From Eublepharis macularius (taxonomy: Eukaryota > Chordata > Lepidosauria > Squamata > Eublepharidae), in contig NC_072797.1 of assembly GCF_028583425.1 (NCBI RefSeq), positions 21,176,001-21,240,000 on the forward strand: a DNA stretch of 64,000 nt. The letters run 5' to 3'. The notes under the pieces were generated by a model. The model was not told the origin of the DNA. It saw only the letters and a list, made by a program, of their open reading frames with translations, and did no database searches. Below are positions 46,436 through 47,523 of the stretch, piece after piece. How positions within the stretch are numbered: the first letter of the stretch is position 1; each line of letters begins with the position of its first letter. A program made the position numbers and the translations under genes.

Positions 46436-47222
<787 letters not shown>

Positions 47223-47235
47223 AATGCACTAAGTA

Positions 47236-47510
47236 TGTATTGTCGAAGGCTTTCACGGCCGGAGAACGATGGTTGTTGTGGGTTTTCCGGGCTGTATTGC
47301 CGTGGTCTTGGCATTGCAGTTCCTGACGTTTCGCCAGCAGCTGTGGCTGGCATCTTCAGAGGTGTAGCACCAAAAGACAGAGATCTCTGAGAGATCTCTG
47401 TCTTTTGGTGCTACACCTCTGAAGATGCCAGCCACAGCTGCTGGCGAAACGTCAGGAACTGCAATGCCAAGACCACGGCAATACAGCCCGGAAAACCCAC
47501 AACAACCATC
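47236..47510. mobile_element. Penelope-like insertion, near-perfect palindrome, 13-bp target duplication
   Basis: AATGCACTAAGTA is repeated exactly at 47223-47235 and 47511-47523, bounding the insertion. Within it, 47268-47387 and 47391-47510 are essentially exact reverse complements around a 3-nt centre. Each arm holds CTGAAGA (plus 47419-47425), a GCCAG/CTGGC stem (47427-47431, 47441-47445), and GAAACGTC (47446-47453), the box order of a hammerhead ribozyme. GAAACGTC leaves no room for a cis stem III but contains self-complementary ACGT. A 32-bp non-palindromic piece (TGTCGAAGGCTTTCACGGCC onward) is at the left end. The arm identity suggests recent insertion. Confidence 0.8.
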
Positions 47511-47523
47511 AATGCACTAAGTA

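Follow-up and report, generated by a model that had tools for sequence, protein, structure and literature searches.

In the genome of Eublepharis macularius, each of 47 head-to-head Penelope/Poseidon insertions with a target duplication carries a tail at one outer end and lacks it at the other. The best explanation, and in our judgement the probable one, is that these insertions arise in a single event, by target-primed reverse transcription from both staggered 3' ends of the target, one for each of two start sites on the element RNA, with the cDNAs joined head to head and sometimes copied from two RNAs. The reference insertion lies in a stretch of 64,000 nucleotides of contig NC_072797.1, here called the window, and is compared below with its sisters in the same genome and with PAc, the Poseidon element of Anolis carolinensis.

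Anatomy of the insertion

The insert spans 275 nt (47236-47510) and is flanked on both sides by perfect copies of AATGCACTAAGTA, which bears out the exact 13-bp target duplication given in a preliminary description of this DNA. That description also gave two 120-bp arms around 3 nt; the arms are indeed identical and inverted, but each measures 121 nt, with 100% complementarity and a spacer of 1 nt. Absent from it was a 32-nt tail confined to the left arm, which makes the insert asymmetric and proved to be its most informative feature. Each arm reads outward through a leader into an ATG that opens MPATAAGETSGTAMPRPRQYSPENPQQPS, and contains the first 86 or 118 nt of the ORF. The features are as follows.

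46439-46870, minus strand: last coding exon of GOLPH3, approximate limits (tblastn)
47223-47235, no strand: target-site duplication, left copy, AATGCACTAAGTA, 13 nt, 100% identical to the right copy
47236-47267, minus strand: tail, ORF +118 to +87, left arm only, 32 nt (direct reading; comparison of sister ends; PAc start site)
47268-47388, sense on the minus strand: left arm, part shared with the right arm, leader and ORF start (inverted-repeat comparison)
47325-47359, minus strand: hammerhead core of the left arm, same as that of the right (direct reading)
47389, no strand: joint centre, 1 nt, inside CTGAG, which in the native 5' region forms an odd quasi-palindrome
47390-47510, sense on the plus strand: right arm, tail-less, outer end at ORF +86
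47419-47453, plus strand: minimal hammerhead core of the right arm (direct reading; geometry as in PAc)
47419-47425, 47427-47432 with 47440-47445, and 47446-47449, plus strand: parts of this core, namely CTGAAGA, stem II and GAAA
47425-47510, plus strand: truncated start of the element ORF (MPATAAGETSGTAMPRPRQYSPENPQQPS..), right arm (direct reading)
47511-47523, no strand: target-site duplication, right copy, AATGCACTAAGTA (repeat comparison)

The palindrome is not a chance structure, because its fold energy (-262.8 kcal/mol) is far below that of 200 shuffles (-86.3, sd 5.8) and at least 43 perfect copies of the arm occur elsewhere in the genome. Neither the arms nor the two copies of the duplication show any difference. 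This fits a recent insertion, although it gives an upper limit of age only, since arms copied from like RNAs begin identical. The proposed position of the insert, in the last intron of GOLPH3, is borne out by tblastn, which places the last exon at 46870-46439 and the preceding one at 55996-55865, both on the minus strand.

The insert is a 5'-truncated Penelope/Poseidon retroelement insertion. Longer sister copies encode a reverse transcriptase (L022:3685-5655, RVT_1, E=2.4e-12, 47.4 bits against a cut-off of 29.6), and in them a GIY-YIG domain is hinted at by a T5orf172 match below the Pfam cut-off (E=0.021) and, by eye, by GVYRIPCSCGQVYIG and GVY..YIG-like motifs. The inverted pLTR-like repeats have a one-sided tail of 32 nt, where 30-40 bp is typical of PLEs, and the duplication is 13 nt in the window and 10-16 nt across the 47 insertions, with 13 nt in 22 of them. 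The young Penelope-like insertion proposed in the preliminary description is thus upheld by the sisters that encode reverse transcriptase, the one-sided tail and the target duplication. The element, the tail, the inverted copies and the hammerhead are all of kinds already known, and so is the head-to-head shape.

Each head-to-head insertion with a target duplication has one tailed and one tail-less end

Sisters were sought in the same assembly (2.24 Gb, 72 contigs) and fall into three sets. A search with the right arm gave at least 53 matches, at least 43 of them perfect over 121 nt, with 40 of 613 candidates scored. Set 1 consists of the window and 38 fetched loci that cover the right-arm matches listed; these matches were chosen to reach -35 and were not selected on the tail. 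Set 2 consists of 19 new loci from a search whose query was +30 to +118 (of 661 candidates, 40 were scored) and which required one perfect tailed arm, so that tail-less pairs could not appear in it. Set 3 is two loci found with a probe for a tandem joint. To locate the insertion ends, the loci were compared by blastn with a single arm of the genomic copy L022, and a further probe was used to detect sequence beyond +118. L001-L008, being the same places as L039-L046, were counted once.

All 47 head-to-head insertions that have a target duplication combine one tailed with one tail-less end, and no two of their duplications are the same. Set 1 contributed 31 of these (26 by script and five, L017, L041, L027, L030 and the outer insertion of L019, by reading or fetching), set 2 contributed 14 (13 and L061/L062) and set 3 two. 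The clean figure is the 31 of 31 in the tail-blind set 1, for which an independent, even choice of ends would have a probability of 0.5^31 = 5e-10. The rule is also kept by older members with the 37A marker, such as L014b, L019b, L019c, L024b and L036b.

Tailed ends lie at about +113 to +120, apart from one at about +127 (L067:440-480), and tail-less ends at about +80 to +87. Exact coordinates were obtained for 45 tailed and 43 tail-less ends, and the remaining six were placed by blastn (+116 and +118; +80, +81, +84 and +87). The tail-less ends are 32 nt upstream of the tailed site, within CACAACAACCATC. A hairpin is predicted at the +118 site, which falls in its 7-nt loop; the whole larger fold is no better than shuffles (z -0.93). 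The two classes of end match the two reverse-transcription start sites of PAc.

Single-armed insertions are present too and were left out of the 47. In set 1 they are 11 tailed cases (L011, L012, L013, L015, L018, L020, L023, L033, L035, L037 and L046) and three tail-less ones (L010, L042 and L045 at 1789), and in set 2 four tailed cases (L047, L048, L050 and L064), L048 and L050 among them extending beyond the sequence retrieved. Also left out was the large L039 arm with L070 (L039:3851-5996 and L070:1-1274), an inverted structure that is tail-less at both ends, has mirrored flanks and lacks a duplication, and that looks like either a fold-back made in assembly or a locus duplicated in inverted orientation. 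A reading of L027 as a tail/tail pair was rejected once the neighbouring region had been fetched, its inner +118 being read-through inside a longer arm.

The two arms as probable separate copies

The inner ends could be measured in 45 pairs. In 29 of these they lie within 10 nt of each other, most at -52 to -31, and in the other 16 they are more than 10 nt apart, by up to 1479 nt (in L034, for example, they are at -1087 and -1780). The interval from -52 to -31 takes in 48 of the 90 inner ends, in part through a selection effect in set 1, and this cluster likely marks a common RNA 5' end or a strong stop. Seven pairs have coinciding inner ends outside it (L021, L024b, L043, L052, L053, L059 and L060), a result that fold-back copying and a shared template would give alike.

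The arms of L038 differ at four subfamily sites, one arm having 27A, 37A, 56T and 72T, each of which is seen in at least three arms, and those of L057 differ at two shared subfamily sites. L036b, L019b and L019c are weaker cases, to which mutation after insertion could contribute. Because inner ends are unequal in 16 of 45 pairs and arm markers can differ, an insertion would seem to be made of two cDNAs and, at least sometimes (L038, L057), of two RNAs. Two RNAs need not be the general case, since the same marker is frequently present in both arms of an insertion, such as the uncommon -8T in L051, L052 and L061. Shared markers and close inner ends fit a shared source RNA, with fold-back copying possible in some cases, and the identical arms of the window insert are compatible with one RNA or two.

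Both outer ends overlap the target duplication by more than chance would give, on average by 1.63 nt at tail-less ends (n=43) and 1.40 nt at tailed ends (n=45), against an expected 0.67 and 0.72; none of 4000 simulations, in which the cuts were placed approximately, reached the excess at either end. Such an excess would be expected if the 3' ends paired briefly with the template. At the centre, same-sense cDNAs can pair at their 3' ends only at self-complementary sequence, and joints lie on odd quasi-palindromes in the window (CTGAG), L014, L049, L053, L055 and L063. Extra or non-native bases occur at the joints of L043, L051, L057 and L036.

Proposed double priming and its alternatives

In the sequence of events that we propose, the GIY-YIG nuclease would cut both target strands 13 nt apart and leave two 3' ends, each of which would prime reverse transcription on sense element RNA. 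Priming from the left 3' end would begin within the loop of the small hairpin, about +118 in the ORF, and so give the tail; from the right 3' end it would begin at about +86, a little upstream of the structured region, and so give none. Both cDNAs would extend toward the RNA 5' end, stopping near -38, and would be joined through their 3' ends at a short quasi-palindrome, presumably by annealing, and fill-in would then produce the head-to-head arms and the duplication. On a stricter form of this proposal our judgement is evenly balanced. Integration would in that form be obligately asymmetric and two-ended, with the +118 loop and +86 both primed in every head-to-head event, two RNAs held by a dimeric enzyme and same-sense cDNAs joined via quasi-palindromes of the RNA 5' region, so that inverted pLTRs would be the normal product of double priming and not of self-priming.

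Self-priming, in which a fold-back of the first cDNA, or of an antisense RNA, lets the second arm be copied from the first, is the published reading for the elements of Adineta vaga (PMC3846280). It would account for the exactly symmetric arms with a 1-nt centre in the window and several sisters, and for the quasi-palindromes at joints. However, a copied-back arm should repeat the tail, which is on one arm alone in all 47 insertions, and the unequal inner ends (16 of 45) and the differing arm markers of L038 and L057 are a poor fit to the copying of one arm from the other. We therefore reject snap-back as a general mechanism and regard it as improbable for these insertions, although a minority of the symmetric joints could have formed in this way.

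Somewhat less probable again is a mixture of templates, in which one arm is primed on sense RNA at +118 and the enzyme then switches to an antisense RNA, the tail-less end being set by the 5' end of that RNA near +86. Such a switch would account for the head-to-head arms, for inner ends that are unequal, for markers that differ between the arms and for the constant position of the tail-less end. An antisense RNA is unneeded, however, since in vitro PAc uses two neighbouring start sites on sense RNA, which mark the limits of the tail, and both target strands are extended (PMC11167929). Overlap with the target is also in excess at the tail-less end just as at the primed end.

The hammerhead core

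A minimal hammerhead, consisting of CTGAAGA, a 6-bp stem II and GAAACGTC, spans the ORF start in each arm, with the ATG overlapping CTGAAGA. By direct reading, the core residues CUGANGA, GAAA and the U-H before the cut are matched as CTGAAGA, GAAA and GTC. The predicted cut falls after 47453, 29 nt from the A of the ATG. Stem II pairs GCCAGC with GCTGGC, thus 6 bp and not the 5 bp stated in the preliminary description, with an unpaired U ahead of it; stem I is just CCU/AGG, compensatory change having been examined in young copies alone. Across the whole window, CTGANGA followed by GAAACGT occurs once per strand, at 47419 (plus) and 47359 (minus). The description of a minimal hammerhead-like core without a stem III in cis therefore stands, and its conserved residues, whose absence would have spoken against it, are present on both strands.

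Less tenable is the suggestion that the palindrome is a functional paired hammerhead cleaving the GOLPH3 intron, the head-to-head layout bringing two cores together in one RNA. The core residues on both strands would suit such a role, PLE hammerheads act as tandem dimers according to PMC7761336 and PMC6155905, and the PAc hammerhead cleaves with protein added (PMC11167929). Because the arms are inverted and one core is sense and the other antisense, the idea of paired cores within one RNA is not borne out: each RNA has one sense core and its exact antisense, the antisense arm is transcribed first whichever the direction of transcription, and the predicted fold of the palindrome transcript is one perfect 121-bp duplex in which the core is buried. 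The hammerhead at this locus would thus be expected to be locked in the duplex. The palindromic layout, moreover, recurs at many unrelated loci and is a product of insertion, not a local design. We consider a functional paired hammerhead very unlikely; the core would instead be carried along as a piece of leader and ORF start, and if the palindrome has any local effect, it may be solely by giving rise to double-stranded RNA in the intron.

The covariance search proposed in the preliminary description found no hammerhead at gathering score in the whole window or up to E=10 in the palindrome, nor did the Rfam search of a single-armed sister copy. This is weak evidence against a hammerhead, because a minimal motif without stem III may escape and because the control over the whole genome was silent as well (RF00163 gave 0 matches, and all 14 controls were equally silent). 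Matches to miRNA-precursor families at 47331-47447 were rejected, all being below their gathering scores (MIR8565, for example, 83.2 bits against 136); their scores are due to the long hairpin.

If hammerhead-cleaved RNA 5' ends (+30) served as template ends, inner ends would be expected there. The interval from +28 to +32 contains none of the 90 inner ends (the nearest, in L031, is at +33), and cleaved RNA therefore does not visibly shape the insertions. In a direct tandem at L023:2885-3118 the first unit stops precisely at +29, the cut site, and the next unit follows from its -44, which might be a template jump onto cleaved RNA, one case not being enough to say so. At L066:353-654 two 72-nt leader units ending at +28 are followed by a third, longer unit and an inverted tail-less arm; this locus was found through the probe for the L023 joint and is thus not independent support. 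At L017:2690-3290, TCTCAGTGTC occurs three times in a row at the joint, and the tandem joint is at about +192 | -43.

An assembly or amplification artefact, of the kind of which perfect short-spacer palindromes are typical and which the mirrored flanks of L039/L070 recall, is hardly credible here, since the window insert has a duplication at its borders and unlike flanks beyond it on the two sides, and the 47 insertions have 47 different duplications.

Comparison with known systems

The rule of one tailed and one tail-less end makes the inverted shape a readable record of both priming events, and it can be tested in other genomes and with purified PAc protein. Double priming would explain the long-puzzling inverted shape of Penelope insertions. 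In the open-licence literature that we searched, we found no statement of a strict one-of-each rule or of double priming.

Minimal type I PLE hammerheads were reportedly described by Cervera and de la Pena in 2014 and by Lunse et al. in 2017. They are presented, in two sources that cite this work, as cores without helix III for which cleavage as tandem dimers has been proposed (PMC7761336, PMC6155905). The core in the window resembles them in having no helix III, and differs from them in that its copies are inverted and not tandem, because of which a tandem-type dimer is impossible inside one RNA.

The Penelope families of Adineta vaga also have inverted copies, which are explained by self-priming that 'would have to occur on an antisense template' (PMC3846280). 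They differ from the present family in being few in copies and in being read in this way.

If double priming is true, it would set Penelope elements apart from LINE-type elements, for which only nicking and extension of the bottom strand have been shown according to the 2024 PAc paper, which also gives the later steps of PAc integration as unvalidated (PMC11167929). The closest known system is PAc itself, compared here by its description. Its hammerhead overlaps the ORF start, with a cut 26 bp past the start codon, and its reverse transcription starts 111-118 nt into the ORF and at an adjacent site, the two bounding the tail (PMC11167929). The window element is similar in having its ATG inside a minimal hammerhead and two probable start sites that bound the tail; a stem III is not described in PAc (PMC11167929). 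The PAc ribozyme cleaved only with protein added, and ribozyme mutants had no effect on insertion in vitro (PMC11167929). In vitro, PAc cuts and extends both target strands, and its start site is the same on both, without difference, so the coupling of one site to each end that we find in the genome was not seen there (PMC11167929). The main text of that paper, unlike the present analysis, has no one-of-each rule and no model for head-to-head insertions (PMC11167929).
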